Source: Cupriavidus oxalaticus (GTDB lineage: Bacteria; Pseudomonadota; Gammaproteobacteria; Burkholderiales; Burkholderiaceae). From it: DNA of 64,000 nt. The stretch spans positions 682,001 to 746,000 of the forward strand of contig NZ_CP038636.1 in NCBI RefSeq assembly GCF_004768545.1, given 5' to 3'. Below are positions 45,255 through 64,000 of the stretch, piece by piece. The number at the start of each line of letters is the position of its first letter. Position 1 is the stretch's first letter. Both the position numbers and the translations under genes were made by a program. The notes under the pieces were generated by a model. The model was not told the origin of the DNA. It ran no database searches and saw only the letters and a list, made by a program, of their open reading frames with translations.

Positions 45255-46200
45255 CTACCGCCTCCGGCTGGCATAGCTTGATTGCCGCGTCACTCTGGAC
45301 CATGACTATCGGCACAGGTGCGCCAAACTCGGTGCTTCTGAGCCTCTCCAAATGAAGACGGCGTGCGCCGCTGGTTGATCCGTCATCGAGGATGAGAAGT
45401 CGAGGTACCGGGTCAATATCGAGGATAGCCGGGTCCCTGGCGACCTCAATGACCATTGGGTCCGGCGCGCGCACAGAGAGGCCAAGGCGCTGTGCCATGT
45501 CATGAAACCTCAGTGTCTGTGCACAGGTGTTGGCGTAGGCGTCGGCTACTTGCTTGCGGCGCTGACTGTCCGCCATATACTGCTTATAATCTTCGAGCTG
45601 GGTCAGCACCTCAGGCCTTCCCCGGGCGACTAGGCGAGAATCCTTAACGAGCTTCGCCTCCCAGAACACAACCTTGATGCGATCAGCGCATTGCTCTAGT
45701 GCAACGAGGTCGATTCGGGGTGCGCGACGCCGGTCGTCGAATGCGGGCAGCGCCATTTCCAGGTCGATGACCGATGCATTCTTTGCAACGACGCGCTCGA
45801 CAAAGCGCTTCTCTTCTCCAGCCTTGCCCGCAGCCCTTTCAACCCATTGAATCAGGGTCGACATGCCTTCATAACTGTGCGCGACTCCAGTGCCCGGATG
45901 CACGAAGCGATTGCCTGACAGGCGAACGTATTTTGCGAGTTGTTCTTTGTCGAACGCATACTTCGCATGTGTTTCGACGTAAGGCACGCCGCCATGGTCG
46001 AAGCCGACCCTGCCAACGGACTGTCCGCACAGATAGAAGTTCATATAGTTCCTGCGCAGAGCCAGCCGAAGGCCATTTTCGGAGCCGCTTGGCTGCCAGC
46101 GCGTCAGGAAATCCTTCCACCAGTGCTCTGCCGGACTGTCAATAATCGCTGCGAGTGTGTGCTGAGCGCCATCTTCGAGATATCTGCCGAACCCGTACAT
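45247..46200 (-). CDS. Predicted PD-(D/E)XK nuclease protein
   Basis: 317 residues, no signal or membrane segment. In the middle E148...PRI-D164-LVAL...VVFW-E181-A-K183 matches the PD-(D/E)XK pattern (an upstream Glu, then D and E-x-K on adjacent strands). The N-terminal ~110 residues (GFGRYLEDGAQHTLAAIID...HYLCGQSVGRVGF-like) and the C-terminal ~90 are unfamiliar. A restriction-like nuclease activity is inferred from the motif alone. Overlaps the MBL gene by 8 bp. Confidence 0.7.
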   Translation of the reverse strand: MYGFGRYLEDGAQHTLAAIIDSPAEHWWKDFLTRWQPSGSENGLRLALRRNYMNFYLCGQSVGRVGFDHGGVPYVETHAKYAFDKEQLAKYVRLSGNRFVHPGTGVAHSYEGMSTLIQWVERAAGKAGEEKRFVERVVAKNASVIDLEMALPAFDDRRRAPRIDLVALEQCADRIKVVFWEAKLVKDSRLVARGRPEVLTQLEDYKQYMADSQRRKQVADAYANTCAQTLRFHDMAQRLGLSVRAPDPMVIEVARDPAILDIDPVPRLLILDDGSTSGARRLHLERLRSTEFGAPVPIVMVQSDAAIKLCQPEAVDG

Positions 46201-46271
46201 AATTCCCCTTGAAACTCTTCTTGTAGAAAATCTAGTTATTGAGAATCGCCGATACTAGACCGTAAGCCTTG

Positions 46272-46652
46272 TTAAAACTGGCATGGGGACCCATTTCCCA
46301 GCCCGATTGACAGCGCCCAAAACCTCATCTTTGACAGCCGGAGCGTGCCGTCCGGGTTCTCCAGAAAGTGTTCCAGCTTCAGATAGACGGGATCTTCACG
46401 ATCGTACGCGGTGTCGATGTAAATCGAGCCGCGATAGCCCATGACCATCCAGTCGTCACTGGCAATCTCCCCGCATTTCTTCCAAGCGTACCCGTTTGCA
46501 TCCAGGCAGCCGACTACCTCTTTACGGGATGCGTTCTCCTCCCAGTCGGCACGGACCGAAACCTCCGCCGAATCCTCAAAGAAAGTCAGATACAGGACGT
46601 CCCGCCCCACTTGGCGTGCAATCGCATCGATATGTTCGACGAGTTGAGGCAT
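46272..46652 (-). CDS. Small acidic protein of unknown function in nuclease cluster
   Basis: 126 residues starting MPQLVEHIDAIARQVGRDVLYLTFFED after a good CAGGAGACTGCC ribosome site (26 codons inside a longer frame). Reads as one alpha/beta domain with WYL-like aromatic patches (DDWMVMGYRGSIYID). No family recognised. It lies 72 bp upstream of the PD-(D/E)XK gene and about 100 bp from the divergent regulator, suggesting it is the first gene of the operon and possibly an immunity or accessory protein. Confidence 0.65.
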   Translation of the reverse strand: MPQLVEHIDAIARQVGRDVLYLTFFEDSAEVSVRADWEENASRKEVVGCLDANGYAWKKCGEIASDDWMVMGYRGSIYIDTAYDREDPVYLKLEHFLENPDGTLRLSKMRFWALSIGLGNGSPCQF

Positions 46653-46750
46653 GGCAGTCTCCTGAGATGCGCAAAAACGATCATATCCGGGAATCTGGTC
46701 ACATCGTGTCCAGATTGTTAAGATGTCAGCCGGATCCAACACATAGCGCC

Positions 46751-47836
46751 ATGAACAAGAACAACAATGACCGCAGCCAGCTCAGTGAGTTGGCAACCGC
46801 CACCCTTGAGTTGATGGCAACCCGCCCCGAAGGATTCCCGTCCAGTGAATTGCAGGCGGCCCTCGGAATGCACGGCGATGTACGAACGATCCGGCGCGCA
46901 TTACGGGAACTCGAGGAAAAGGAGTTCGCTCGACCTACCGGCGCCACGAAAGGGCGCGTCTGGAAGGCTATCAAGCCAATACCATCTTCCCGCCGGCCCA
47001 CCGTCAATGAGTCCATCGCCTTACTCACCCTCCGGCATCTGGCCTACCGCCACCTCCCTTCGAGTGTTGTCAGATCGCTTGAGCCCGACTTCGCAGCAGC
47101 GGAGGGCGTACTGCAAGCGCACCCCACCGCCTCGAACCTAGCCGCCGCCCGCCTCTGGATGGACAAGACTGCCAGGCTGCATGGCCGCTACCCACTCATT
47201 GCGCCGTCAATACGAGAAGACTTTTTCGAGATTGTTGGCCACGCGCTGTACAACGACGAGTCCTTAGACATTACCTACCGGACCTCGCTTGAAGCCGAAC
47301 CCAAGCAATACCGGGCAATGCCGCACGCATTGATAGAGAAAGGACCTCTCTGGTACCTCGTGGTCAAAAACAGGCGAAACTCAGGGAAACCCGCTACGCC
47401 GATCCCTCTGCGCATGGACCGGATCGTCGACGTGAAGCCGGCCGGCATTGACCTGCCCCGAGATAAGTCGTTTAGCCTGGACAAGTTCATTCGGCAGGAC
47501 CGGAGCATGGAATTCTTCCCCGGTGACCCGGTCCAGATCCGGCTTCGCGTCAGGGAAATCATCGAGGATGGGCAGCGGGTCGAACACGCTTTCCGCTCGT
47601 TGAAACTCAGCCCCGATCAGACCATTGAAGACCTCGAAGGCGGGTTCATGCTGACGGCCACCATCGTGCCCTCCGTTCCCCTGACGAACTTGTTGCTCGA
47701 GAAAAGCACCACTGTCGATGTCATATCGCCGCTTAGCATGCGGCAGGACATGATCAGCCGACTGAAGCGAGCCCTGGCCCAATACGAAGAGCCTTTGGAG
47801 GTCCTAGATGTTTCTGGACGTCAGCCGTCCAGTTAG
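46751..47836 (+). CDS. WYL-domain transcriptional regulator
   Basis: 361 residues. N-terminal winged helix (~10-70: ELMATRPEGFPSSELQAALGM, TIRRALRELEEKEF) and central WYL domain (~150-235: YNDESLDITYRT, YRAMPHALIEKGPLWYLVVKN, PLRMDRIVDV), with a C-terminal WCX-like extension (VQIRLRVREIIEDGQ). WYL regulators bind nucleotide ligands or single-stranded DNA and are frequent repressors of defence operons. It faces away from the nuclease cluster across a 98-bp gap, the normal geometry for autoregulation of both directions. Confidence 0.92.
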   Translation: MNKNNNDRSQLSELATATLELMATRPEGFPSSELQAALGMHGDVRTIRRALRELEEKEFARPTGATKGRVWKAIKPIPSSRRPTVNESIALLTLRHLAYRHLPSSVVRSLEPDFAAAEGVLQAHPTASNLAAARLWMDKTARLHGRYPLIAPSIREDFFEIVGHALYNDESLDITYRTSLEAEPKQYRAMPHALIEKGPLWYLVVKNRRNSGKPATPIPLRMDRIVDVKPAGIDLPRDKSFSLDKFIRQDRSMEFFPGDPVQIRLRVREIIEDGQRVEHAFRSLKLSPDQTIEDLEGGFMLTATIVPSVPLTNLLLEKSTTVDVISPLSMRQDMISRLKRALAQYEEPLEVLDVSGRQPSS

Positions 47837-49947: not shown

Positions 49948-50748
49948 TTACCAAGGAACGCAGATGGTTTCAACCGTACGCGCCCAAACCGAGAATTGAT
50001 TTGCAATTTCACCATCAACCAAGACCCCTGCTTCGAGGCCGTGATCTAAACCTGATTTGGTGAAGTTAGCACTTCCAATATAGGCCTTTACCCCATCGCC
50101 GATGACCACTTTGGCATGCAAGATGGGCGTGAAACCCTCATGCTGCTCAGGCGCCAGGACGCTAACCTTAGCACCCGCCTCCCTTAAGGTCTTGATAAAG
50201 TAATTTAGTCCCTCCTTGTCCTCTTCCTGCATCATTGCCTTGGGCTGGGTAAATATGAGTACCTGAATATCAGGGTAACTCCGCCGTCCTGCCGCTGCCA
50301 GCAAGGCTTGGACGCCCTTGGCGCGCCAATAGGGTGCGAAAACAACTAAGTTGTGATTCACCCCTTCCAGGATCTTGCCAATGGCAACAAGTAGACTACC
50401 GCCCCAGACCTTTGAGAAGACAGGCTGGGTCGCCAAAGTGGCATCAATATGCTGGGGGGCGCTGCAAAGAGCTTGCGTGCCGAGGGAGATGGCCTGTCCA
50501 CCATACGTCCCGTAAGCGTACGAATACGCTTCCCAAGGAATTCCGACGGTCAACTCGTTCCACGTTTCTTTTGGAAAAAAGGGCACATGAATAGTGGCTT
50601 CCGTTCCATGCGAAGCTTGCGCCTTGGCTACATGGGCGCTGACTGCCACGGTAATCTCGTGCGCCAACGCCCGCGACTGCGCAATCGACAGACTTTTCAT
50701 GTAGGTGGCAAGTCCTTGAATGAGTAACGCTCGCAACGTCATACTCAT
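49948..50748 (-). CDS. drmC: DISARM protein DrmC (PLD domain)
   Basis: 266 residues. PLD half-site H211-A-K213-x4-D218 (ILHAKVVIGDG) and GSANFTKSGL (225-234) in the C-terminal third, the usual position in DrmC. ATG 50748 overlaps the drmB stop as ATGA; an upstream GTG would overlap by 31 bp and is not preferred. In DISARM, drmC is the third core gene; published work on the family describes it as largely dispensable in some settings. Last gene of this operon: 13 bp downstream the repeat array begins. Confidence 0.9.
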   Translation of the reverse strand: MSMTLRALLIQGLATYMKSLSIAQSRALAHEITVAVSAHVAKAQASHGTEATIHVPFFPKETWNELTVGIPWEAYSYAYGTYGGQAISLGTQALCSAPQHIDATLATQPVFSKVWGGSLLVAIGKILEGVNHNLVVFAPYWRAKGVQALLAAAGRRSYPDIQVLIFTQPKAMMQEEDKEGLNYFIKTLREAGAKVSVLAPEQHEGFTPILHAKVVIGDGVKAYIGSANFTKSGLDHGLEAGVLVDGEIANQFSVWARTVETICVPW

Positions 50749-52820
50749 GCCTGCCAAAACCCCTTGGGAATCCACAGCGCCTGTCCTTTATCGGCAAAGC
50801 CTCCGTGCAGGTAGGAACGGGAGACTCCAGCGTTAAAGGTTTCGCAACCGCGCGAAATCTGGATGCAACCAGGACAAGCCGAACCTACGTCTGAACAGAT
50901 TGGGTCGAAAGCGCAGTTGTACGCGTGCAGCGACGCGTCCTCAAACCAGCGTCGTAAGTAGTGCTGGAACAGCGTCAAAAGACCCCCTGCCGTGTAGTTT
51001 TGCACGGAGGTGACGTAAATTAGCAAACTCAGGTCCATTGGCAGAAGGTACTCAGTCAGTGTCTGACTGTCATAGCCGCTGTGGCGCCTTGCAGTTAGCA
51101 TGAGCGAATGGCTAATGGTGTGCAGTAGATGAAACGGACTAGCCATCTGCGAACCCAAAGTCTTGGTGAGTTCCGCTGCCTGTCCTGGCGGCTGAGTGAG
51201 TATTGGGCTGTTTTGCAGCAGGTAGGCATGCGCCGCAGCCCGTGACGCTAGGGCTTCAGGCGGAGGCGTCTCCCATCCCGCGCTTTGAGCACACCAGTTC
51301 AAAATCTTCAACGGGTCGAGCCGAATCCATAGGGCCTCTGTTTGGGCACTTAAAGCGTACAGCACCGACTTACCCTTAGCCGAGGAGCGAACCCGGTCTT
51401 CGAATGGATTGAGTTTAACTGACACCTCGTCGGGGTTGCGCTCGGGTTCGCGCTTTTCACGCGTGAAGCCGACCGCCGACAAGACCACCTTGAGGTCCGG
51501 AATGTGAGCGATGTCTTGAACTCCAAAGGTGTCTTGCACGTCCTGCCAGTCCTGAGCGCGGCTTGCCTTGATGATCCGGTCGATCGTGGCGTCGATAGAC
51601 TGCTGAATGCCTTCGCGACCGACATCATGGCGAAGCAACACCGCTTCCATCGTACGACGCTGCCTGATAAGGTTTAGCAAAACGTCGTCGCGATCAATAA
51701 GCTGGCGCACGGATAGGAAGGTCCCTTCCGAAGCGCCTGATTTGCTTATGAGCTTTGACAGTTTCTCCTTGGAAATGTCTAGAATCGACCCAAGATCGGT
51801 ACCAGTCGCAATAAGTGCCTCAAGCTTGGAAATATCCTGCTCAAGCTTCTTGCGTTCCGCCTGGATCTGCGCAAGCTCCTCTGGGGTGGCGGAGCCAACT
51901 TCGAGGATCTGCATGAGCTGCGACTGCAAGGCTAAGCTATCAATAGAGCCCAAAAGGCCATGAGCGACACCTTCCGCCAAATCCTTAGCGCGGCCTATAA
52001 GCGCAGCCCCGTCGCCAAATTGAGCGAGCTCAGACTGTACGCTCGATATGAGTTCGCCGGGCACTTTGGACAGTGCCACAAACTGTAACACCTGAGGAAA
52101 AAACGCATCCCCTCCCCCAACCGGCGTGCCCTTTTGCAGCGGCGGGGCATTCTTGCCACTATTGGCGCTACTAACCGAGCATGTCATGCACAAATCAGCG
52201 GTAGCGCCAGCAACGTTTTCGTCAGTGTTCATGTCGAAGAACATGTTCTGGCGATACATACCCGTGTTGGCCCGCAGTCCCAGGGCCATGTAGCCGCGCG
52301 CTGTCGGCGGCACCGTCATGGCAGTCATATGGCCACAGCGGTGCACCAAGACATAGGGAACCTGGTGCATTAGCCCGTTGCAACTTCTTCGGATGCAGCG
52401 AATTCGCATGTTTCCGCCGCTGCCGGTTGTACGTCCTTGGGCGCTAGCAAGTACGAGTTCTTGTGCCCGCTTAGGTTTGTCGTGGTTTTCTAGCGCACCG
52501 CATTTGATGCATCGCAGCACCAATGGGAAGGGCGTGACGTAAATTTCGCTTGGAGCCTGAACCCTAAAATCGTTACGTTCGGCGGCCTCTTCCAAGAGGG
52601 CATCGACCGAGCCTCCATTACTTTTCCAGTCGAGTAGGAACTTTCGAACCGCGTCGATGAGCTGATTACGGTCGAGTCCTTCCAAGGCGTCCTCCTTGTA
52701 CCCGACACCGACGACTTGAGCAAGCGACTGGTTGCGCAAACGCGTTACAGCACCTGGAAGGTAATTTTCGTAGAAGATCCGACTATTTTGGATGAGTTCT
52801 TGTTCAATACTGTCAGCCAT
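50745..52820 (-). CDS. drmB: DISARM protein DrmB (DUF1998)
   Basis: 691 residues. N-terminal Cys pairs (LRCIKCGALENH, IRCIRRSCNG, VHRCGHM, LCMTC) suggest zinc binding. Residues ~290-400 contain a helical stretch (EELAQIQAERKKLEQDISKLE). The C-terminus is the DUF1998 signature: HTISHSLMLTARRHSGYDSQTL, LLIYVTSVQNYTAGGLLTLFQ, CAFDPICSD and ACPGCIQISRGCETFN. DrmB forms a complex with the DrmA helicase that loads on phage DNA. Starts 5 bp after the drmA stop, so the two are tightly coupled. Confidence 0.92.
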   Translation of the reverse strand: MADSIEQELIQNSRIFYENYLPGAVTRLRNQSLAQVVGVGYKEDALEGLDRNQLIDAVRKFLLDWKSNGGSVDALLEEAAERNDFRVQAPSEIYVTPFPLVLRCIKCGALENHDKPKRAQELVLASAQGRTTGSGGNMRIRCIRRSCNGLMHQVPYVLVHRCGHMTAMTVPPTARGYMALGLRANTGMYRQNMFFDMNTDENVAGATADLCMTCSVSSANSGKNAPPLQKGTPVGGGDAFFPQVLQFVALSKVPGELISSVQSELAQFGDGAALIGRAKDLAEGVAHGLLGSIDSLALQSQLMQILEVGSATPEELAQIQAERKKLEQDISKLEALIATGTDLGSILDISKEKLSKLISKSGASEGTFLSVRQLIDRDDVLLNLIRQRRTMEAVLLRHDVGREGIQQSIDATIDRIIKASRAQDWQDVQDTFGVQDIAHIPDLKVVLSAVGFTREKREPERNPDEVSVKLNPFEDRVRSSAKGKSVLYALSAQTEALWIRLDPLKILNWCAQSAGWETPPPEALASRAAAHAYLLQNSPILTQPPGQAAELTKTLGSQMASPFHLLHTISHSLMLTARRHSGYDSQTLTEYLLPMDLSLLIYVTSVQNYTAGGLLTLFQHYLRRWFEDASLHAYNCAFDPICSDVGSACPGCIQISRGCETFNAGVSRSYLHGGFADKGQALWIPKGFWQA

Positions 52821-52825
52821 AGCGA

Positions 52826-53662
52826 TTACCTACCAAGAGCGTGAAGTACATGCGCCGACTTCGAATCCAACGGAGAGATCTCGACCTGATTTTCGATATC
52901 GCGGAACGATCTCATGGGACCGAATTGGTAAATAGACTCCAAAGCTGTACCTAAATCCTTGTCCGCATTGGCCGCGCTGAGGTTTTGCAGTCGATGTAGG
53001 CCGCGATTGACTTCTTCGTCCAACTGCTTGCGAAATGCACCCAATACCCGAATGTCGAAACGCGATTGCACTATCGGTGGCACATCCAACGCCTCAATCA
53101 GCATGCCGCGCAGTTTCTGACGCGCAATGCCTGTGGCATCGTTGAGCGCCTTGTGCAACTGGCTGGCACTCCGGTTGAGGCCGTCTCCCCAGCCATGCTG
53201 GAACTTTGCCCAGTTGTAGACCACCGCGGTGAACACACCAGGCAAGGTACGCTGTAGGACATTGGGCGCAAAACGGTTGATTGGGACGGAATCGACCAGC
53301 TTGTCTAGGAAGAAGTGGTAGTCACCAAAGTTAAGAAATACCCCAGACTCGAAGAGTTTGCCCGCACTTAGGATCGACATGACGATGCCCGGCTGCGTGC
53401 GCCCACTGCGCGCCGAGGACTGAATATACTCTGCCGTTGAAGCCGGCCAGCCGTCGAGCACCATGAAGTTGAGTTCGGAGATATCGACCCCATGTGAGAC
53501 GACACTCGTGGCAACGATATGACGCATCGGGTCGCAGGGCGCCTTGTTCTCTACGTGGTGGATTGCACCAAGAATATCGTCCAGCGGTGTCTGGCCATCC
53601 AACAACACATGGGTTCGCGGCTGAGCATGGTTCGAATTGATATTCTCCAGATGCTCCCGAAT
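52826..53662 (-). pseudogene. drmA: DrmA helicase, C-terminal part (separated by IS)
   Basis: 278 codons carrying the RecA2 half of the helicase: HIVATSVVSHGVDISELNFMVLDGWPAS (motif V) and EYIQSSARSGRTQPGIV (motif VI). The adjoining N-terminal part lies at 54,934-57,639 beyond an IS3 element. Removing the IS plus one GAT duplication joins ...RKRQTTI to IREHLENINSNH...VLLDGQTP with no frame change (1180 codons in total). As it stands the fragment has no start of its own other than an internal GTG at 53608. Confidence 0.9.
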
Positions 53663-53665
53663 GAT
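53663..53665. repeat. Left GAT target-site duplication
   Basis: GAT directly left of the IS3 end; the matching GAT is at 54,934-54,936. 3-bp duplications are normal for IS3-family insertion. Confidence 0.85.
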
Positions 53666-53734
53666 TGAGGTAGCCTGATCGAGGCGGACACGCTTGGTCC
53701 TTAGATTAAGATCGTGGATCAGGAGTGTGCACAG

Positions 53735-54046
53735 ATGAGCAAGGCAAGACAGACGTACGGGGAAGAGTTTCAGGCAGAGGCCGTGAGACTGGTGCTGGAA
53801 CAGGGACTGACGCTGCAGTCGGCCGCGCAGCGTCTGGGGATTCCGAAGGGCACGTTGACGAATTGGGTGTCGAAAGCCAAGGCGCCTGGAACAGCAGCGG
53901 CACCAGGGGGCGTGACAGTGGCAGAGTTGGCGGCGGAGAATGCGAGGCTGCGCAAGGAGCTGGCCGAGGCGAGGCTGGAGCGCGATATTGTAAAAAAAGC
54001 CGCGGCGTACTTCGCCAGGGAATCACTGCCCGGTACGCGTTCGTGA
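53735..54046 (+). CDS. IS3 OrfA
   Basis: 103 residues: SKARQTYGEEFQAEAVRLVLEQG, a helix-turn-helix (TLQSAAQRLGIPKGTLTNWVSK) and a leucine-zipper-like C-terminus (ELAAENARLRKELAEARLERDI). Binds the element ends and regulates the transposase. The run of seven A at 53,992-53,998 allows a -1 shift into orfB to make the fused OrfAB. Confidence 0.95.
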   Translation: MSKARQTYGEEFQAEAVRLVLEQGLTLQSAAQRLGIPKGTLTNWVSKAKAPGTAAAPGGVTVAELAAENARLRKELAEARLERDIVKKAAAYFARESLPGTRS

Positions 54047-54900
54047 GTCAATGGCGAGAAGTGTATCCGGTGAAGTTGATGTGCCGGGTATTGGGGGTCT
54101 CGCGCAGTGGCTACTACGACTGGACACACAGACCTTACGGGCTCAGTCCGGAACAGGAGCGGCTGCGTCTGGCGATCCGGGCAGCCCACAAGCGCACGCG
54201 TCAGACGTACGGTACGCGGCGCCTGCAGCGCGAGCTGGCTGGCGATGGATTCGTGGTCGGCCGTGATCGGCTGGCCAGACTGCGCAACGAGATGGGGATT
54301 CGGTGTCGGCAAAAGCGTCGATTCGTAGCGACAACTCGCTCGGCTCATAATCTGCCAGTGGCGCCCAACCTACTGGAGCAGAAATTTGAAGCCGACAGGC
54401 CAAATGCCGCGTGGGTGACAGACATCACGTATATCGCGACCGATGAGGGTTGGTTGTACCTGGCAGGAATCAAGGACCTGTACACGTGCGAGATCGTGGG
54501 CTACGCGATGGGGCCCAGAATGACACAGGAATTGGTGGGCGAGGCGCTGTTCCGGGCGGTGCGCAGCAAGCGGCCACGGCCCGGCCTGATTCATCATTCA
54601 GACCGGGGCAGCCAATACTGTGCTCACGGCTATCGCAGGTTGCTAGCGCAGTTCGGCATGCTGGCTTCGATGTCACGCAAGGGAAACTGCTACGACAATG
54701 CGCCCATGGAAAGCTTCTGGGGCAGCCTGAAAGCAGAGTTGGTGTACCACCATCGGTATGCCACCCGGCTGGAAGCCATGGCCTCTGTCCGTGAGTACAT
54801 TGAGATTTTTTACAATCGCCAACGGCGCCATTCGAAGTTGGGGTACCGAACGCCAGGCGAAGTCGCTGCAAGCTACCTCAGTCGACTAGCTGCAGCATGA
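54043..54900 (+). CDS. IS3 OrfB transposase (rve core)
   Basis: 285 residues from a GTG that overlaps the orfA stop; naturally made as an OrfAB fusion through the -1 slippery site upstream. Catalytic set visible: WVTDITYIATDEG (Asp), LIHHSDRGSQYC (Asp), NAPMESFWGSLKAEL (Glu), then the R-R-H-S-K-L-G-Y-R-T-P ending typical of IS3 integrases. Appears active. Confidence 0.96.
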   Translation: MSQWREVYPVKLMCRVLGVSRSGYYDWTHRPYGLSPEQERLRLAIRAAHKRTRQTYGTRRLQRELAGDGFVVGRDRLARLRNEMGIRCRQKRRFVATTRSAHNLPVAPNLLEQKFEADRPNAAWVTDITYIATDEGWLYLAGIKDLYTCEIVGYAMGPRMTQELVGEALFRAVRSKRPRPGLIHHSDRGSQYCAHGYRRLLAQFGMLASMSRKGNCYDNAPMESFWGSLKAELVYHHRYATRLEAMASVREYIEIFYNRQRRHSKLGYRTPGEVAASYLSRLAAA

Positions 54901-54933
54901 ACCAGACGTGTCCGCGCTGGACAGAACACCTCA

Positions 54934-57639
54934 GATCGTGGTTTGGCGCTTGCGTATCGCGTAAATCAGGTCGGTGTTGAGGTACTTGCCGATGTACTCG
55001 ACAAGTTCGGGTACCAGAGTCGCAGGTAAGCAAAATTGTCGGATGACCTGGGGATCCATGGCCGCCAAGCCTCTGAGCCAGTCGTCGATTAGATCTAGGT
55101 AGCGTGACGCGACCTCAGCAGCCGCTCGCTCTGTGCCGCCGCGAGTGAAACTTAGTGGCATGACGCCAGCGAACCAGCGTCGAATCAACGGCTGATCGCC
55201 GTCCCAACTGATGCGGGCATAGAAGGACTCGCCCTTCTTGGTCCCAGGGGATGGGAAGCGCCTGCCTGGTCGCATATAGAGGTGCAGGATGTGGCTCTCG
55301 AAGTCTTTGATGGTGGCCGTCGCCGCAAGCACCTTCGAAACTTGGCCGCCATGGCCGACTTGCAAAGTCTGCAACAACGTTTCATAGTGAGCGTCGAAGT
55401 TGCCCAATGACTCGCGCAATAAGTGCAGCTCGTCCTGAATGAGAAAGGAAAAACCCGGATCGAGCATGGGCTCGAGTTGTAGCGTGCGCACCTTGCTTGT
55501 GCGGGAGTTGTTCCCGCACGCAATGGACTCGTATTCGCCATGGACGTTTAATACGATACGCTGATGCCTGCATTTTGCGTCCGCTGTGAAGCCGTGCTCT
55601 GGACAAAAATGCCGAAAAGCTCCGAAGTATCCCGCGAAACGTTCGTTATGAGCGATGACAGCGAGCTTGTCGACCGTCCCGACTAGAACGGTGGGTAAAT
55701 AGCGGTAGCACTCTTCGTCGCTGACGTAGATGCCCACCTCACCCGCGATGCCCTCGCCGTGAGCACCCGAGCCAGCTTTCGTGTTGCTCCAGCAATCCGG
55801 GTTGTCGCAATGGTGCAGCATACGCGAACGCGCTATGTCCGTCGTCATGCCTACTGACCCTGCTTTGCCGCAATATGGACAGTCAGTGATGAACTTAAAA
55901 CGCTGCAGTTGCTCAGGAGTTTGGTCGGCCAACCATATCGATGACCCCTTGGCTTCGGATCGGCTGATGCTGCCCGGAGTACCGCTGCCCGTGTAGTAGC
56001 CCACCGTGAAGGGGTGCCCATTGATAGACTCGCGGCACCGCAACATCTCTGCTTGAGCCACGACGTACGACAGGCGCTGAAACTGCTGCGCCGACAGCAT
56101 TCGCAGTGGGAAACGCATCCAAGCCGTAGTGCCGTACAAGCGGCCTCTCACTCGAGCATAGAGCATTGTAAAGGCGATGATGCCTAGGTAGGCCTCGGTC
56201 TTACCGCCGCCAGTAGCAAACCACAGCACATCTACAGTGTCTGCCACATTCTGGCGTTCGTGAACAATGCAATGGCGCTCGTAGACCGCTCTTATCTGCG
56301 TGAGAATAAAGCCCAGCTGGAATAGATGCCAGCCATCGAAAGATTTACCTTGCATGGCGATGGCCCGCCCCATGACCTCGTTCATCCAGGCGAAACATCG
56401 CTGCAGGTCCTCATGCTTGCGCAGCAGATCGACCCCATCGCTGATCAGCGCCACCTCACGGTTGTAAGCCGCTCGATCGCTTTGAACCTCTTTCAGCTCT
56501 GCAGCTTTGCCCGCTACCTTGAGCTCGGCCTCCACCTCATCCCAAACGTCGTGATACCTTTTGAGAGCATCAAGGAAGCCATCGAGTACCTCGATAGGCT
56601 TCTCCTGGAGCAACGCAAAGCTTGCCGGCAGCGCCATATTGACATCCTTCGGCGTCGGCGCATCCACCCTCGACTGCGCGAAAACTGGCATCGAGTCTGT
56701 CCGGAATCGCTTCGGCGCCACCTTGCTTACGGCGCAAGTCACACCATAGCCTGCGACCCCGTCTTCGGGTTGATAGCGGTAGTCTTCGGGCTGCAGACGG
56801 TGTGGTACATCGATTTGGTGTCCCGTGGAGATGTGTGTCTCGAACTCGACGTCCAGTAGGCAAGGTTTGTTGAGACAGTATTGCCGCCCGCTCGCCGAAT
56901 CGCTGTTGTTTTGCAAGTACACTTCGAGCAGATAGCGTTTCCCTTTGCCCGCAAAATTAGGGGGAGGCTGGCGCAACCGAGTGCGAAGTACCACGTCATG
57001 CTCCAGGATCTGGTCGCCCTTGAACAAGCTCTCGGTGACTAAGTCAGCCAACTCCTCGTCGGTGACGCAATGTTTGTGTCCCCAGGGAATGATTTGGCTA
57101 GCCCAGCCCTTGTCGTTGACCTCGCAAATTCTGAAGATGCGAGGATCCCTCTTCCAGATCTCCTGCAGTGGCCCCAATACCGACTCGAGCTTTTGCTCCT
57201 TCCAGACGTTCATCTCACTGTCCTGGAGATTGAAAGCGATGTCCGAGAAAGTAACGGTAAAACGCTTGTAGCAATCCGGTATCCTCTGACGGCTCTTGTC
57301 GCCGTCAGGTCCCACCTGAATGTGCGCTAGCATCAATTGAAGCGAGGGGATATAGCGGTGGGTGAGATCGAATCGCCCTTGCAGATTAATGACCACGCGT
57401 CCCTCGTCATCAGGCTCGACCATGAGCACCATGCCCATGGCGCTGGGAGCTTGCTCACGGTGATAATCCGGATCAGGTCGCGGCGCTAGACCGCCAATCA
57501 GTGAGACTTCAGCAGGATCCTCGTCTGTGATGACCCCTTCCTGCGGCAAGACCGCCTGCGGCTTTCCGGCCAGGCGCAAGCGCATCGCCTCGAGCAGCTG
57601 CCGCGAGATGCTCATCTTGTCCTTGTAGCTCAATGCCAT
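54934..57639 (-). pseudogene. drmA: DrmA helicase, N-terminal part (truncated by IS)
   Basis: 902 codons, then TGA supplied by the IS end at 54,931-54,933. Residues ~450-790 hold the RecA1 half: Walker A WFATGGGKTEAYLG (~475), the Cys pairs CPYCGKAG and CDNPDCW, DEAH-box-like IQDELHLLRE (~736) and motif III ATATIKDF (~773). The large N-terminal region (~1-440) is specific to DrmA. DrmA is the ATP-driven motor of DISARM that recognises single-stranded phage DNA ends with DrmB. The interruption separates motifs V-VI from the rest, so the encoded product should be inactive. Confidence 0.93.
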
Positions 57640-57667
57640 GGTGTCCTTCCAGGATCTTGGTTCGGTT

Positions 57668-60469
57668 CTAATTTCTCAACGTTGGCAGGTGTTCCCCTGC
57701 ATGGTGAACGACGACCTTCGCACGAAGCTCGTCCCAATGAAAGTGGAGACGCAGTGTATAGCGTGGGTTGAACGCGCGTCCGAGTTTGATGTGTCGCGAT
57801 ATGTCCACCTTCTCGCCCTCATAGATGCGGAAGTAGTGCTGCTCGTGCTTGCCCTTTGTGATTTCCGACATGCCGCCTGCGTAGGATGCAGGAATTGGGG
57901 CGAGCATGGCCTCTACGTCTTTAAGTGACTTGCTGTGGTCTGCAAGCATGGGATAGAAGCCATCGACTAGAACTTGCAAAATTTTGCCAAAGGCTGCCAC
58001 GTCGCCAAAGGTCGAATTCCGCATTACACGCTCGCAGCCTGAGGTAAAGAGCAACTTGGTGCCATGGCGCATGGCAAATTCCATGGCGACATCCTTGATA
58101 GTCGCCGGGCTTGTTGGCCCTTGCTCCAATGCGGGGCGTTCCATGCGAACGACTTTGACGATTCTCACCATGGCATCAAACACATCGCGTGAGAACCGCC
58201 TCGTCCCAATCTGCACCGCTGAGATATCTCGGTTACGAGAGACAGTGATCGCGCGGCGCAAATCTGTTCCAATACGTCGGTGCTCGTGACGCACTTCGCT
58301 GATAGCGTTGGCCACCATACCCGCCATCAAGTCAGCATTCGCGACTTGAGCAAGGTTCGCGAGCAAACGGATAGCTGTCGGATCTTGCGGCCCAATGACT
58401 CCGCCATGCGCCCAGTTTTGCACGGTGCTATTGTGTACGATGAATCGCTTGGATTTAAGATAAATGTTAAGCTCGACCGCCGTCTTGAACTTCGTCATGC
58501 CTGTGTCGACGTATTCCTGCCACTTCTCAGCAATTCGCAAGGTCTGAGCAAGCCCATAGTTGTCTTGCACAAACATGTCGAAGAGATCCTTCTGTGTAGC
58601 CACCCGCTCCTCACTACTGGCCAGAATCATTAGTTCGTTGCGAACCGAGATATCCTTGGCAGGACACGCCTCCAGTTCCTCACCTTGCAGTCGCATCATT
58701 TGTTGATTGATACCTACGCGTATCGGCTCTGCCTGCCCCTCCAAGTGCAGAACGACAACATCGCGCGTGTGCTCTTGCGCAAGTTCCTCATCGCGCTGGA
58801 CCGGTATGGGCTCGGTCAACAGTACATTGAGCCAATCATCGAAGCCTCGAAACGTTTCGAGTTGTGCGACCCGCAGCTTGAGGGGGTATTCGCCATCGAT
58901 GTCTGACAACGTGAACGAGACGGCGCTATTGGCGAGACTATCGCCGTCGACAAGGGAATCTTGCAAATAACGATTCGCCGGCCATTGCAAGGACCACAAG
59001 CGCTGTTTGTCACCTTCCGGCGCGCTGGGCAGCGCGTGACTTTTCCACCAGGCCTGCGCCGTGGCACACACGCGTTCTCGTTCGAACGGATGGCACACAA
59101 TAATTTTCTTGCTGGCATGCAGTCCCAGCCAATGGATGCGAGATGGGTACAGAACCCCTGCATAGATCGCTAGATCTGTCGCTGGTGGCGCAATGGCGGA
59201 TGCCCCGTCCATCTGTGAAACTGCTACTAAACGGACGGCTTCGAGACCGAGGCGCTCTTCAAGATAATTCTGGAGGATTTGCGCATCACGCCGTCCGCCC
59301 ACCAAGACGCTCACACGCTGGCTTCGAGATATCGCATCCCGGCAAAGCTCCACGATAAGCTCGACCCGCCCCGGTTTAGCCTCGGACAGATCTTTGATCA
59401 TATGCCGCACCGTAGCCATGATCTGGGAATGAAGTTCCTGGATATCGCCGCGGCGTCCCTTCAGGCGCGAGGCGATGTCAAGCCAGGACTCGATCGTGCG
59501 GATCGGGTAGCGCCCCCCCCGAACATGGCGTAAGGTTCCCTGCTCGTGCACAGGCAAAGGGACATTGAGACCGCGTAAAGCACGATCCACAGCCATCATG
59601 GCCGAGAGCTCCTGGGATAAACCGCCCGTCTCCTCCATCTTGCGCTTTAGGTTCCATGCCATGAAGCCTAGCTTCTTGACAAATGCGTCCATCGTAGGAT
59701 CACGCGCGGCAATAACCTCGATCTGTGAGGAGCAGTCAATAGGGGCTCCTGAGTCGCGGCGCAACGCCGCAACATCTCCCAGACGGGTGTTCCAGGTATG
59801 CATCGGCAACGGTTCAACCAAGGCCTGCCCAGTGTAGCCGAGCGCGACGATTGGTACGTTCGGGAAGAACTCGCGTGACACTTTGATTAGGCTGAGCGAA
59901 TTCTCGTCGCAACCCTGCGGCGTGATTTGCACCACAAGAGCAAAGGGCTTAGCCTTGGAACTGAGCAGCGAAAGGACGTCCATCAAATTGTCCTGTCCGC
60001 TCACGAGGAGAGTTCGTTGGAACTCGGAAGCATCTAGCGGCTGGTTAGCGTTCACCACGCGAGGACGCATGACCACCGATGTACTGAAGTCGCGCCACAT
60101 GCGCCGTGGGCGCCCAAAAACAATTAAGTCGGTGCGAAGCGCTATCGAAATCGGGTTGAGCCAGGTTGACCGTAATAGCCCGCCAGCGGCATCGAGACGT
60201 AGACGATGGAGGTAGAAAGCTAGCCGAGCCAGAGTAGCCTCCCGCCCAATCGGCAGACTCAAGTGCACCGATTGTCCAAACCTCAGAAGCCTTCCTACGG
60301 CTGCCATGGCCACCGCCTCTTCCTCAGGTGGTACAGCCAGCCCTTCTTGCGCCCAGATCTCTGCACCGCCACGCAGCAGTTCGGAGGCAGTCACCGCGGG
60401 CCATGATTGTTCAATTTGACTGCGCCAGCCGATGAGCTTGGGCGCCGCTGCAGTTGCGGCGGATTTCAT
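57668..60469 (-). CDS. Large DISARM-associated protein, possible DrmE-like
   Basis: 933 residues, soluble. Sits 28 bp upstream of drmA in the place where class 2 DISARM carries drmE. The middle shows a helicase-C-like strand pattern (RVSVLVGGRRDAQILQNYLEERLG, ATDLAIYAGVLYPSRIHWLGLH, KKIIVCHPFERERVCAT). The C-terminal domain (NSTFGDVAAFGKILQVLVDGFYPML, YFRIYEGEKVDISRHIKLGRAFNPRYTLRLHFHWD) resembles the end of DrmE as I remember it, but I cannot verify. No intact Walker A seen. Stop overlaps nothing; start overlaps the end of the ATPase gene as ATGA. Confidence 0.6.
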   Translation of the reverse strand: MKSAATAAAPKLIGWRSQIEQSWPAVTASELLRGGAEIWAQEGLAVPPEEEAVAMAAVGRLLRFGQSVHLSLPIGREATLARLAFYLHRLRLDAAGGLLRSTWLNPISIALRTDLIVFGRPRRMWRDFSTSVVMRPRVVNANQPLDASEFQRTLLVSGQDNLMDVLSLLSSKAKPFALVVQITPQGCDENSLSLIKVSREFFPNVPIVALGYTGQALVEPLPMHTWNTRLGDVAALRRDSGAPIDCSSQIEVIAARDPTMDAFVKKLGFMAWNLKRKMEETGGLSQELSAMMAVDRALRGLNVPLPVHEQGTLRHVRGGRYPIRTIESWLDIASRLKGRRGDIQELHSQIMATVRHMIKDLSEAKPGRVELIVELCRDAISRSQRVSVLVGGRRDAQILQNYLEERLGLEAVRLVAVSQMDGASAIAPPATDLAIYAGVLYPSRIHWLGLHASKKIIVCHPFERERVCATAQAWWKSHALPSAPEGDKQRLWSLQWPANRYLQDSLVDGDSLANSAVSFTLSDIDGEYPLKLRVAQLETFRGFDDWLNVLLTEPIPVQRDEELAQEHTRDVVVLHLEGQAEPIRVGINQQMMRLQGEELEACPAKDISVRNELMILASSEERVATQKDLFDMFVQDNYGLAQTLRIAEKWQEYVDTGMTKFKTAVELNIYLKSKRFIVHNSTVQNWAHGGVIGPQDPTAIRLLANLAQVANADLMAGMVANAISEVRHEHRRIGTDLRRAITVSRNRDISAVQIGTRRFSRDVFDAMVRIVKVVRMERPALEQGPTSPATIKDVAMEFAMRHGTKLLFTSGCERVMRNSTFGDVAAFGKILQVLVDGFYPMLADHSKSLKDVEAMLAPIPASYAGGMSEITKGKHEQHYFRIYEGEKVDISRHIKLGRAFNPRYTLRLHFHWDELRAKVVVHHAGEHLPTLRN

Positions 60470-63400
60470 GCTCTCACGTCCTTGGGACTAGTCACTATCG
60501 GCTGACATTCAGTGATGGCGCGCTGAATCGACGGGACAAAACTGTAAGTGATTTTTCCCTCACGGTCAGCGTCCTTGGACTGCTGCTTGGTGTTGACCTC
60601 GATCACCCTTAAAGCGGCCCACCAACGCACGACTGCGTCTGCTTGTTCAGGTGCAATTGCGAACTCGGATTCCTCGTCGCACATAAACTCAATCGCGGTC
60701 TGCAGATCGCCGCTCGAGAAACTCGAGAGCATCTCGAACTCCTTGAGCTTGGCCCCCAAAGGCAACGACCACGGTAGGCTATTCATGCCCGACATGGTCA
60801 CGAACTTCTCAAAGTCCTTGCCCTGCAGTTGTTCCAGCGAGATGAATGTCTTTGACAGATCTGCGAAGCTGGAAGCGGACTTTTTCCTCTTGCGCGCCTC
60901 GATGAATTTCGTCAGATGATCGTACCAGCCCTCAGTGGCTGAGCGCAGCAGCTCGCCTTGCTTTTGGGTTGACAGCATGTCCTGCTGCTCGAGCAGGCTC
61001 TCGCACGCATGGTGCGTCCAGCGGTTGAGGTCGACTTGGCCTCCGATCTCGTCGGGTGCCATCGTGAGCCATGAGTGGGCATGCCAACTCCACATAGCCT
61101 TAGCGCCCAAAAGGAAGACCAGACGCAACGGGTGCTTGAGCCGTGGCGCCTTCGATGCCATCTCGTTGGCGACGCTAATCAAATCCATGATCCGGTCTAT
61201 CGAAGAGCATTCCTCTAGCGAGATCAGCACAACAGCCGGCTTAGCCGTGGCCCAGTTATCGATAGCAGTGTTTATACGCTCGGAGAACCTTTTGAGATCA
61301 ATCGTCGCCGCGTCCCTGATAACCTGCGTTTCATATGTGGACATCGAAGATCCGGACTGGAACTCGTTGATCGCGTTGAAGCCTTCTTGCATGGCTTCAA
61401 TGGTTAGTCCCAGGGCAGGTGTGCCCATAATCAAGGAAACGGAATACTTGGGGGCCCCCTCTGGCGGCTTCGCTGATAGGATCATTCGCTCGTCTTGTAG
61501 GGAGAGCGGCGACGGGATCTTGTTGGAGCCCAAGCCGGTAGCATGGCAGGTCAATACGTCCTGCTCATGCTCCTTCAGGCCCTTGATGGCCTGCTGCAGC
61601 TTGTGCTCGATATCATCCATCGAGCCAATAAGTTGCAGAATGGACTGGTTGCGCAAGGCATACTGGCGCTTTGCTTTATCGTCCACCCGCAACACTCCGA
61701 GGCCAACGAGCTCTTGTAGGATGCTCTCAAAGCCCGACTCGCTCATCTGCTCGAACTCTTCGGGCACCCAGGTACGGGCCACTTCCAAAGCCTTGCCGAC
61801 TGTGAACTTGCCGATGCCTTTGTCGTAGGCCGCGATCAATCCGTAGATCGCAACGGTGTAACGCTTATCCAGGTTGAGCGTCATATCAAAGCGCTCACCT
61901 GAGAGCCGACGCACGTCAGAGTTGTTCTCGATGTTCTCAATGTCGGTCTGACGGATCGGGCGGACGCCGTCAGTTCGCGAGCGATCCCGCCCCAACTGCT
62001 CCACCAACGCGCTGCAGAAGATATGCAGCAAGCTAGGATGGCGGTTGGTAAACGCCATGATGCGATCTACCAATTCAGGTTCTTCAAATCGGTAGCCCAG
62101 AGCAGTCAAAGGCTGCAGAATTAGACTGCGAGCATCTTGGGCAGACAGGATGCCAACTTCGAGCGGGCTGCCCAACTGCTCTAGGGGAACGTTCGGGTAG
62201 GTACGGAACCGATTAACGTTGTTCAGACCGGCAAATACAACCCGGAAGCGATTATGGGGATCATTGACCAAAGCCTTGAGCGAACGCACCAGTTCGAAGT
62301 TGGCCGAGGCATCCTTGTTAAGTACGGAATCAATTTCATCGAGACAGAAGAGGACTTTGGTGGTTCCCGGGCGCAAGAACTCCTGGCGCAGCCTGTCCTC
62401 CGGATCCATCTGAGCACTGCCCGGGTTGTTGGACAGAACCTTGTCATCTACGAGCTTACGCACCAACATCTCGAATAGGCGTGACTTGACGTTGATGCCA
62501 CGCTCAACCACGTGCTGGAAGATGCCATCCATCGGCATGTAGTAGGCGTGGTTGTGCAGCGGGTCCCGCTTTTTGAACTCCTGCACAGCAGCATTGAGAA
62601 GCGTGGTCTTACCAAGCTGGCGGCCGCCGTAAACCAGAGCCGCACCTCGCGGCTCTACCAGTGAGGCAATGTCGTTCTCACGACCGAAGCGCATCTCGGG
62701 CGGCGCCGGTAGACGGGCATCCCCCTTGGTGTAGGGGTTGTAGAACGTCCAAGCTGCGCTCACCCGCAGGAAAGTCTCGAACATCACCTGCTGATGACGC
62801 GCCGTCGCAATAAAGGAAAGGATAACTGGGTCCAAAAGGAAGATACTGCACTTACGGTCACGGCAGAATGCCGCGAAGGACTTGCGCTCTTCCGGACTTA
62901 GGGGGTGCCCCACCATGAGGATGGAGCGGTCAGGTTGGCCATGGCGCTCGATAAGGTCAATTAAGCCGGCCTGGCTCCAATCCCCTTGCACAAAGATGAT
63001 ATTCAGGGGCTGCGGCGTTCCGATGTCGCCCTCGAACAGCGGAAAGCCCTTGGGCAGGGTCGGTCGAGAGATCCGAACCTTTAGGCGCCGGAAATCGCCA
63101 GTCGGGGTGTACTCACAGTTGTTGAGCACATCTTCTTTGCCGATCTTCTGCGCGACATCGAGCCCGAGAAACTGCAACACCGATACGATGCCTTCATAGG
63201 TGGATTTCTCGAGCTTAGGTTTCTTGTTTCGACCTTTGCTACGCCACTCCAGGAGGGTGGCAATGGCGCTCCTAAATTCTGCCTTGCGGACTGAATAATC
63301 TAGCTCGCCCGGCGCCTCTTGGATGACACGCTCACCTGCTTCTCGCGGATTCAAATGCTCGTACAATAGAGCCGATAGCGGCGTTTCAACCTGAAGAAAT

Positions 63401-63999
63401 GCGCCCAGTTCGACATTGTCCAACAGCCACGTTTCTATCAAGCGCGCGTTGCGTTCACTGTGCTCCTTAAGCTGGTTGATGAGCTCGCGCACCAGTGAAA
63501 GGTTGTGCTTGCCCAAGGTATGACGGGCGCGGACATCCCACCCTTCCGGCACTGCATCCTGACCGAGTTTGACTCGGATACTCAAAAGTTCGCGGTTTAG
63601 CTCCTCCTCGAGCAGCGTGGCACTGCTGTTAAGTAGCTTCTCCATGGACCGAACCCTTTGCTGGACTTCGGAGTCGATGTCAGAAACGTCCACATAGGGT
63701 CTGCGGTCCGACAGTTCGTCTAGCCACGAGTTGACGAGGTCTGCGTTTGCGAGGTGATCGCTTTCGCTGATAATGTCCACCGACATCGCTTGCAGCGAGA
63801 GATTGCGGAACTGCTCTATTGCCTTCTTGAGGTCGGCCCGGACCCCAGCGATGTCATTGCTCACGCTGTCGATATCGGCCGCACGCGGACAGTCATCCGA
63901 CTCCATCTGGCGTAGAAGTAGCAAGCGCACCCAATGCGCATGTTGACGCTGCGCCAGCGCCAGCATGTCGGCAAGCCAACTCGGCGACGTCAGCCGCAT
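60466..63999 (-). CDS. Large AAA/STAND-type ATPase, possibly continuing past window
   Basis: 1177 residues from an ATG three bases from the window edge, so the true start may be further right. An N-terminal ~430 residues of helical and alpha/beta sequence precede an ORC/STAND-like ATPase: RENDIASLVEPRGAALVYGGRQLGKTTLLNAA (Walker A ~455), VLFCLDEIDSVLN (Walker B ~551), VVFAGLNNVNRF (sensor 1) and NRHPSLLHIFCSALVEQL (winged-helix entry). The C-terminal ~400 residues contain another P-loop-free nucleotide-fold-like region (AKPAVVLISLEECSSIDRIMDL) and a helical tail. Overlaps the next gene as ATGA. Operon partner of DISARM genes; probable sensor or loader of the system, by inference. Confidence 0.8.
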   Translation of the reverse strand: MRLTSPSWLADMLALAQRQHAHWVRLLLLRQMESDDCPRAADIDSVSNDIAGVRADLKKAIEQFRNLSLQAMSVDIISESDHLANADLVNSWLDELSDRRPYVDVSDIDSEVQQRVRSMEKLLNSSATLLEEELNRELLSIRVKLGQDAVPEGWDVRARHTLGKHNLSLVRELINQLKEHSERNARLIETWLLDNVELGAFLQVETPLSALLYEHLNPREAGERVIQEAPGELDYSVRKAEFRSAIATLLEWRSKGRNKKPKLEKSTYEGIVSVLQFLGLDVAQKIGKEDVLNNCEYTPTGDFRRLKVRISRPTLPKGFPLFEGDIGTPQPLNIIFVQGDWSQAGLIDLIERHGQPDRSILMVGHPLSPEERKSFAAFCRDRKCSIFLLDPVILSFIATARHQQVMFETFLRVSAAWTFYNPYTKGDARLPAPPEMRFGRENDIASLVEPRGAALVYGGRQLGKTTLLNAAVQEFKKRDPLHNHAYYMPMDGIFQHVVERGINVKSRLFEMLVRKLVDDKVLSNNPGSAQMDPEDRLRQEFLRPGTTKVLFCLDEIDSVLNKDASANFELVRSLKALVNDPHNRFRVVFAGLNNVNRFRTYPNVPLEQLGSPLEVGILSAQDARSLILQPLTALGYRFEEPELVDRIMAFTNRHPSLLHIFCSALVEQLGRDRSRTDGVRPIRQTDIENIENNSDVRRLSGERFDMTLNLDKRYTVAIYGLIAAYDKGIGKFTVGKALEVARTWVPEEFEQMSESGFESILQELVGLGVLRVDDKAKRQYALRNQSILQLIGSMDDIEHKLQQAIKGLKEHEQDVLTCHATGLGSNKIPSPLSLQDERMILSAKPPEGAPKYSVSLIMGTPALGLTIEAMQEGFNAINEFQSGSSMSTYETQVIRDAATIDLKRFSERINTAIDNWATAKPAVVLISLEECSSIDRIMDLISVANEMASKAPRLKHPLRLVFLLGAKAMWSWHAHSWLTMAPDEIGGQVDLNRWTHHACESLLEQQDMLSTQKQGELLRSATEGWYDHLTKFIEARKRKKSASSFADLSKTFISLEQLQGKDFEKFVTMSGMNSLPWSLPLGAKLKEFEMLSSFSSGDLQTAIEFMCDEESEFAIAPEQADAVVRWWAALRVIEVNTKQQSKDADREGKITYSFVPSIQRAITECQPIVTSPKDVRA

Positions 64000-64000
64000 T

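Follow-up and report, generated by a model that had tools for sequence, protein, structure and literature searches.

The window, a stretch of 64,000 nucleotides from Cupriavidus oxalaticus that corresponds to positions 682001-746000 of contig C3 (1.19 Mb) in a genome of 7.97 Mb and 7 contigs, carries towards its right edge a five-gene operon, which spans positions 49948-67323 (window coordinates) of the minus strand, with 3.3 kb lying past the window edge. All genes share a single orientation and are read in the order ATPase, DrmE-like protein, DrmA, DrmB and DrmC. The ATPase and DrmE-like genes are joined by an ATGA overlap, gaps of 28 bp and 5 bp separate drmE from drmA and drmA from drmB, respectively, while drmB and drmC overlap; the overlapping or near-overlapping upstream frames that an earlier note had described from the sequence alone are thereby borne out. 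This anatomy, with respect to gene content as well as gene order, is established with high confidence, and comprises the following features.

60466-64000, minus strand: ATPase gene, C-terminal part in the window; the gene extends to window-equivalent position 67248 (2260 aa) or 67323 (2285 aa)
62605-62628, minus strand: Walker A motif, GGRQLGKT, residues 458-465 of the 1177-aa piece (alignment; position by arithmetic from the ORF)
62335-62340, minus strand: Walker B Asp-Glu (D554 and E555 in the numbering of the 1177-aa piece), unchanged across 45 sequences; coordinates calculated from the ORF
57668-60469, minus strand: DrmE-like protein, 933 aa (PADLOC, Pfam DrmE_C, NCBIfam, predicted fold)
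54931-57639, minus strand: N-terminal piece of drmA, 902 aa, helicase RecA1 part (PADLOC DrmA, E 4e-85; NCBIfam DISARM_DrmAS, E 8e-80, below cut-off)
54934-54936, no strand: GAT, right copy of a 3-bp target-site duplication (sequence comparison)
53666-54933, plus strand: IS3-like insertion sequence, 1268 bp, with imperfect terminal inverted repeats, interrupting drmA
53714-54046 and 53725-54900, strand opposite to drmA: transposase-like ORFs of the element (ORF list)
53663-53665, no strand: GAT, left copy of the 3-bp target-site duplication (sequence comparison)
52826-53608, minus strand: C-terminal piece of drmA, 260 aa, helicase RecA2 part (PADLOC DrmA, E 8e-25; Pfam Helicase_C)
50745-52820, minus strand: drmB, 691 aa (PADLOC DrmB, E 3e-25)
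49948-50775, minus strand: drmC, 275 aa, PLD-type nuclease (Pfam PLDc_2, E 1e-11; PADLOC DrmC)

Past the ATPase, the scanned ORFs include those of an HNH-like protein and a DUF4236 protein, followed about 6 kb on by a defence-associated reverse transcriptase, Drt5 (L003:12694-14190, window-equivalent about 73693-75189, beyond the edge; PADLOC E 3e-218). Because of this nearby drt5 gene, the operon probably lies within a defence island. A region of a 315-aa protein (L003:7685-8632, window-equivalent about 68684-69631) resembles SAVED-HNH and CBASS endonuclease effectors according to PADLOC and has no Pfam match. Left of drmC, at window positions 44007-47836, Pfam identifies a metallo-beta-lactamase-fold protein and a WYL regulator, accompanied by two unannotated ORFs; the annotations of Azospirillum, Bradyrhizobium, Microvirga and Agrobacterium likewise place WYL genes close to the ATPase, and B. 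arboris contains a WYL domain.

The interrupted drmA and the DISARM-like core

The element within drmA is IS3-like by its general features. Its internal 1,251 bp occur in full length at eight sites of the genome, counting the one in drmA, with identity listed as 100%; the four others that share its orientation deviate from the drmA copy by 0 or 1 mismatch. When aligned with the 1180-aa DrmA of Paraburkholderia hiiakae, the 902-aa piece corresponds to residues 1-902 with 75% identity, and the 260-aa piece to residues 921-1180 with 88% identity. Since the element separates the two helicase lobes of DrmA, the C. oxalaticus copy of the operon is probably inactive. Hence, the view that the core drmA-drmB-drmC is clear holds for drmB and drmC (by PADLOC, and for drmC also by Pfam), but has to be amended for drmA, which the insertion sequence has split into 902 and 260 aa.

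With regard to class membership, both DrmA pieces are assigned to the DISARM DrmA helicase by PADLOC, the protein being broken in C. oxalaticus and of full length in P. hiiakae. DrmB is recognised by PADLOC and matches the NCBIfam model DrmB_fam with E 1.5e-18 (67 bits against a cut-off of 240), while Pfam gives no match; DrmC exceeds the Pfam cut-off for PLDc_2, is named by PADLOC and reaches 50.7 of the 133 bits set by NCBIfam. Their identities to the P. hiiakae counterparts amount to 77% (drmB) and 50% (drmC). Every NCBIfam DISARM score falls under the NCBI cut-off. Of the partners that define class 1, DrmD has no match among the operon proteins and, as regards DrmMI, the methylase family PF07669 has none in the genome; no DrmMII of class 2 was found in the operon either, matches to PF00145 being confined to contig C4. 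No operon protein matches Druantia in PADLOC either, which sets the locus apart from Druantia III with its DruE and DruH. According to the available text of PMC9252829, the PADLOC class definitions demand DrmMI or DrmMII. Strict DISARM membership therefore fails, because a methylase is missing and the scores lie below the cut-offs, and DISARM-like variant is the fitting label.

A methylation-sensing residue has been proposed for Serratia DrmA, V1296, and the alignment to the solved chain ends at residue 1203. In a nearby conserved RDx motif of DrmA, which may or may not correspond to V1296, Ile is found in 11 of 11 sequences of the ATPase type and its close sisters, but also in 2 of 5 of the methylase type.

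The giant ATPase, the DrmE-like protein and their distribution

The first gene of the operon lacks an in-frame stop before the window edge and encodes 2285 aa when counted from the first ATG in the genome, or 2260 aa in the database copy. A complete ATPase of 1177 aa is ruled out, since the ORF continues for 3.3 kb beyond the window; the length given in the earlier note was thus cut by the window edge, whereas its assignment to AAA/STAND proteins is upheld by Pfam (nSTAND1 and AAA_22, both just above cut-off for the 1177-aa piece) and by the fold. Membership of the STAND/Orc-type AAA ATPases is indicated by a P-loop with Walker A and Walker B motifs in a STAND/Orc-like core, and G458, G459, R460, G463 and K464 (numbering of the 1177-aa piece) are invariant across 45 aligned sequences. 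In a fold comparison restricted to named regions, the N-terminal half lying outside the folded set, the predicted core resembles Orc2, archaeal AAA ATPases and CED-4/NLR proteins. The N-terminal half is large and includes two variable stretches. Neither the ATPase nor the DrmE-like family matches a solved structure by sequence.

The 933-aa protein represents a divergent DrmE that bears an HEC-07-type tail and for which a degenerate SF2-helicase fold is predicted. Its N part (about residues 22-523) is predicted to be SF2-helicase-like with degenerate motifs, and is followed by a DrmE_C domain (595-742) and an HEC-07-type C-terminal domain (782-930). The designation DrmE-like, already proposed in the earlier note, is supported by a Pfam DrmE_C score of 48 bits, above the cut-off of 27; the NCBIfam models DrmE_fam and DISARM_DrmE yield 56 and 24 bits against cut-offs of 80 and 250, respectively. 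By hmmsearch, the profile of this family matches 2 of 10 candidate genes in the DrmE position of related loci, those of Haloplanus and Streptomyces. The name HEC-07 is absent from the literature searched. A stand-alone HEC-07 protein of 531 aa is encoded on a viral contig (L034:8612-10207), and its C-terminal part also matches NsnC.

The DrmE-like/ATPase family is rare but recurrent. The DrmE-like gene occurs in 3 of 398 genomes of the window's family (its own included), in 2 of 144 genomes of the genus of G300, and at order and class level in 1 of 399 and 1 of 369 genomes, each time the window's own, while the ATPase is found in 3 of 398 genomes at phylum level. P. hiiakae contains all five genes in full length and in the order ATPase-drmE-drmA-drmB-drmC, so that the search for other genomes with the same gene order, suggested in the earlier note, has one intact example. 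A second Paraburkholderia locus (G136, probably P. gardini) retains the first four genes, with no DrmC match. Following drmB, in the place where one might look for drmC, this locus encodes a SIR2-type argonaute (L021:16144-19422) on the opposite strand. In B. arboris (33 kb) and a Methylobacter metagenome-assembled genome (20 kb), the fetched stretches show the ATPase and the DrmE-like protein with no match to DrmA, DrmB or DrmC. The Methylobacter ATPase ORF (L016:613-7408) is split into 1259 and 1008 aa, by a frameshift or an assembly error.

Co-occurrence was assessed on protein clusters, encompassing all 80 DrmE-like clusters, the 71 close ones of 105 ATPase clusters and 59 of the 120 DrmA clusters listed out of 1,545. 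As one contig, the longest, is visible per cluster, the shared contigs are lower bounds: at least 31 DrmE-ATPase, 24 DrmE-DrmA and 22 ATPase-DrmA pairs, with all three proteins on 12 contigs. None of the 61 lower-scoring DrmA clusters listed shares a contig, three of them being fragments of close relatives on short contigs. Neither the DrmE-like protein nor the sister DrmA was detected in 50,697 phage records. At class level, the sister DrmA was detected in 6 of 262 genomes; besides the window's own, these are five genomes that match at 30-37% identity.

More distant relatives of the ATPase were collected from 23 plasmid records with a match, 16 of which were opened (B. arboris included), and supplemented by one viral locus, two loci from further genomes and three weak viral ones (L036-L038, 23-25% identity). 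The bait test covered 25 loci, four of the close family and 21 others, among which L053 shows no core match; G1279, retrieved with E 5e-13 in the ATPase search, yields no match to the core at 1e-4 within the stretch fetched. Several baits were drawn from the distant loci themselves, and recurrence accordingly denotes repeats only. In 3 of the 21 distant loci (Azospirillum, Bradyrhizobium and Microvirga) the core resides within the same annotated protein of 3,100-3,394 aa as pPIWI-RE, and a DruE-type helicase is present in three more, namely in Methylocystis (L025, together with DruH), at a viral locus (L035) and at L052, where the genes overlap. One further locus contains an E2/ThiF/JAB gene and one a PLD-Snf2 helicase; 13 of the 21 lack all helicase, PIWI and conjugation baits. 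An MBL-like gene is found close to the ATPase in both Agrobacterium (L030:16271-21399) and B. arboris (L020:18984-22581), together with a gene for ubiquitin-like conjugation of the E2/E1/JAB type.

A partner gene follows the ATPase at 8 of the 21 distant loci; seven aligned partner proteins share an invariant R...AH motif, in the form RNxxAH in six of the seven. The motif is presumably HEPN-like and the partner possibly a HEPN RNase. The partner genes (among others L023:16778-18355, L024:16268-17422, L029:16412-17545 and L035:12211-13209) encode the R...AH motif C-terminally, sometimes with an AAA_33 kinase-like tail. HEC-07 was rejected as the usual ATPase partner elsewhere, since seven proteins encoded by following genes do not match it, and profile comparison of the partners with the DrmE-like family was not significant (probability 1.8%).

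Methylase genes at ATPase-type and sister loci

Right of the window edge, the next 3.3 kb belong to the same ATPase gene. Across 37 kb (L003 and L004, reaching about 34 kb past the edge), no ORF of at least 150 aa contains an [NDS]PP[YFW] motif, Pfam gives no methylase on six ORFs beyond the ATPase, and none of the families PF00145 (E up to 1e-5), PF07669, PF02384 and PF01555 (E up to 1e-3) is found on contig C3. A methylase directly outside the window is thus ruled out for this contig by four Pfam families and the motif scan, and the earlier note, which had named drmMI or drmMII just past the edge as the finding that would overturn its idea, is not contradicted there. Elsewhere in the C. oxalaticus genome, PF00145 matches contig C4 only and PF02384 only C4 and C6, and in each of three ATPase-type genomes a single PF01555 methylase of about 190-197 bits is encoded far from the locus. 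At the P. hiiakae locus, neither about 14 kb upstream nor 3.5 kb downstream contains an N-6 motif in ORFs of at least 150 aa, a bait match or, by Pfam on four flanking ORFs, a methylase; the PF01555 match closest to the operon is located on the same contig at a distance of about 260 kb.

Nine methylases of sister loci, used as baits, found nothing around ATPase loci; as to their reach, the 5mC baits found each other, and the N-6 baits only their own source, the Polaromonas methylase missing that of Afipia. The N-6 motif scan returned nothing in seven stretches around three ATPase-type loci (window, P. hiiakae and G136, where the contig starts 0.66 kb upstream of the ATPase and the scan covers mainly the downstream side), whereas in the control loci its only hits were the methylases of Polaromonas, Afipia, Streptomyces and Rubrobacter. 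A 5mC motif scan, successful in one of two controls, was also negative at the ATPase-type loci. The central idea of the earlier note, an ATPase-bearing DISARM variant without a methylase of its own, accordingly stands, its gene order being intact in P. hiiakae.

For comparison, ten plasmid records with a match to P. hiiakae DrmA were opened, chosen from 40 listed of 85. A methylase gene lies in or adjoins the operon in seven of them (Rubrobacter, Roseomonas, Streptomyces cellulosae, Halobacterium, Polaromonas, Allocoleopsis and Afipia), separated from it by a transposase gene in Allocoleopsis and assigned by PADLOC, with none given by Pfam, in Rubrobacter; in Halomicrobium it follows about 6 kb downstream. 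The fetched stretch contains the ATPase core in none of the ten. The operons of Polaromonas, Afipia and Rubrobacter begin with the methylase gene, which immediately precedes the gene in the DrmE position. The DrmE-position proteins of these three do not individually match the DrmE-like family profile; seven sister second genes, when pooled, match it with a probability of 93.6% that is confined to the DrmE_C region. DrmE precedes DrmA in four loci devoid of the ATPase (Streptomyces, Haloplanus, Halobacterium and Halomicrobium). Haloplanus (L044) and Haladaptatus (L056), for which the gene tables are incomplete, show no annotated methylase, no bait match and no ATPase. These two rule out that methylase absence is exclusive to the ATPase type, and methylase loss is therefore not tied to the ATPase.

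Possible role of the ATPase

Taken together, we consider the locus, with a probability of roughly 0.5, to be a DISARM-like defence operon in which a giant ATPase occupies the place of the co-encoded methylase and may act as a trigger. Among the readings weighed, this trigger model has the best support, although it is inferred from where the gene sits, from the fold and by analogy with Druantia III. As in DISARM, DrmA-DrmB would constitute a DNA translocase or helicase and DrmC a PLD nuclease, while DrmE, with its predicted helicase fold minus ATP-binding motifs, may bind DNA or serve as an adaptor without catalytic activity of its own. The ATPase, with its Orc/Cdc6- and NLR-like STAND core, would sense infection or load onto invader DNA and subsequently switch DrmAB on, whereby the discrimination between self and non-self would arise from the trigger rather than from methyl marks, giving the system a putatively methylation-free character. 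For DISARM itself, this discrimination has been proposed in a structural study to depend on the structure of DNA ends as well as on methylation (PMC9142583, part of the text). More tentatively, the ATPase could be a portable trigger module that was acquired independently by DrmAB, DruE and pPIWI-RE machines, the DISARM-like case being the one in which the role of the methylase was replaced by triggering upon infection.

The operon shares features with several known systems. Like DISARM class 2 (as presented in the available text of PMC9252829), it combines a DrmE-DrmA-DrmB-DrmC set with helicase and PLD nuclease, and of the two DrmA models of NCBI the short type (DrmAS), as in class 2, fits the N-terminal piece best; unlike class 2, it has no drmMII in or near the operon, begins with the ATPase, features a DrmE with an extra HEC-07-type domain and scores below the cut-offs. 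The operons of Polaromonas (L057) and Afipia (L059) follow the same order of a first gene, a DrmE-position gene, DrmA, DrmB and a PLD protein, but their first gene is annotated as an N-6 DNA methylase, in contrast to the giant ATPase of C. oxalaticus, and homology of the second genes relies on one pooled profile (93.6%, DrmE_C only). The DISARM-like ShdA/RmuC operons of Pseudomonas, compared by their description in the accessible part of PMC10270631, also possess an extra non-canonical component, though it is an RmuC-domain protein and not an ATPase. Druantia III resembles the operon in that a large, dedicated sensor accompanies a helicase effector of the YprA type (PMC13192584, in the portion available), and relatives of the ATPase stand beside DruE at L025 and L035 or overlap a DruE-like gene at L052; the C. 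oxalaticus operon proteins, however, match neither DruH nor DruE. Finally, the three-gene pPIWI-RE systems (PMC3702460, in part) are linked to it through fusions of the core with pPIWI-RE in Azospirillum, Bradyrhizobium and Microvirga, whereas no operon protein has a PIWI match; the words 'ATPase' and 'AAA' are absent from the main text of that 2013 paper, as far as the text was available. In the literature searched, which mostly comprised papers outside subscription, an ATPase-bearing DISARM variant is undescribed.

It would be rather unlikely that the operon performs methylation-dependent, DISARM-like restriction with a methylase acting in trans, for instance a housekeeping enzyme, and with the ATPase as an accessory. 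Candidates exist in the single PF01555 methylase of each of three genomes and in the PF00145 and PF02384 matches on other C. oxalaticus contigs, and the ATPase activity of DrmAB is reportedly reduced on methylated DNA (PMC9142583, part of the text); yet seven of the ten related loci carry a methylase in or beside the operon, the ATPase is the first gene in P. hiiakae as well as in G136, and a mobile operon that depends on a host enzyme would presumably be less portable. Nor do we expect, at a slightly lower likelihood still, that an abortive-type ATPase-DrmE system and a DrmABC cassette are mere neighbours working independently. The ATPase-DrmE pair without a DrmABC match in the B. arboris and Methylobacter stretches speaks against the trigger model, as the pair may be a separate system joined to DrmABC, and a different R...AH partner takes the place beside the ATPase in 8 of 21 distant loci. 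On the other hand, DrmE precedes DrmA in four ATPase-free loci, which implies that DrmE belongs with DrmAB, the genes form one tight operon, and there are contigs common to all three large proteins. That the operon is a decaying remnant, inactive everywhere and deprived of its methylase by gene loss, is very improbable: drmA is split here, the Methylobacter ATPase ORF is split as well and G136 has no drmC match, but dozens of clusters comprise full-length conserved proteins, all five P. hiiakae genes are of full length and the ATPase motifs are invariant.

With this DISARM-like operon, a natural variant is at hand that has the same helicase core, in which no co-encoded methylase was found and the ATPase sits in the methylase's position, which makes the question of self/non-self discrimination testable. 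If the ATPase does act as the trigger, one would expect from its relatives next to DruE, and from those fused to pPIWI-RE, that defence systems now studied separately share a switch.
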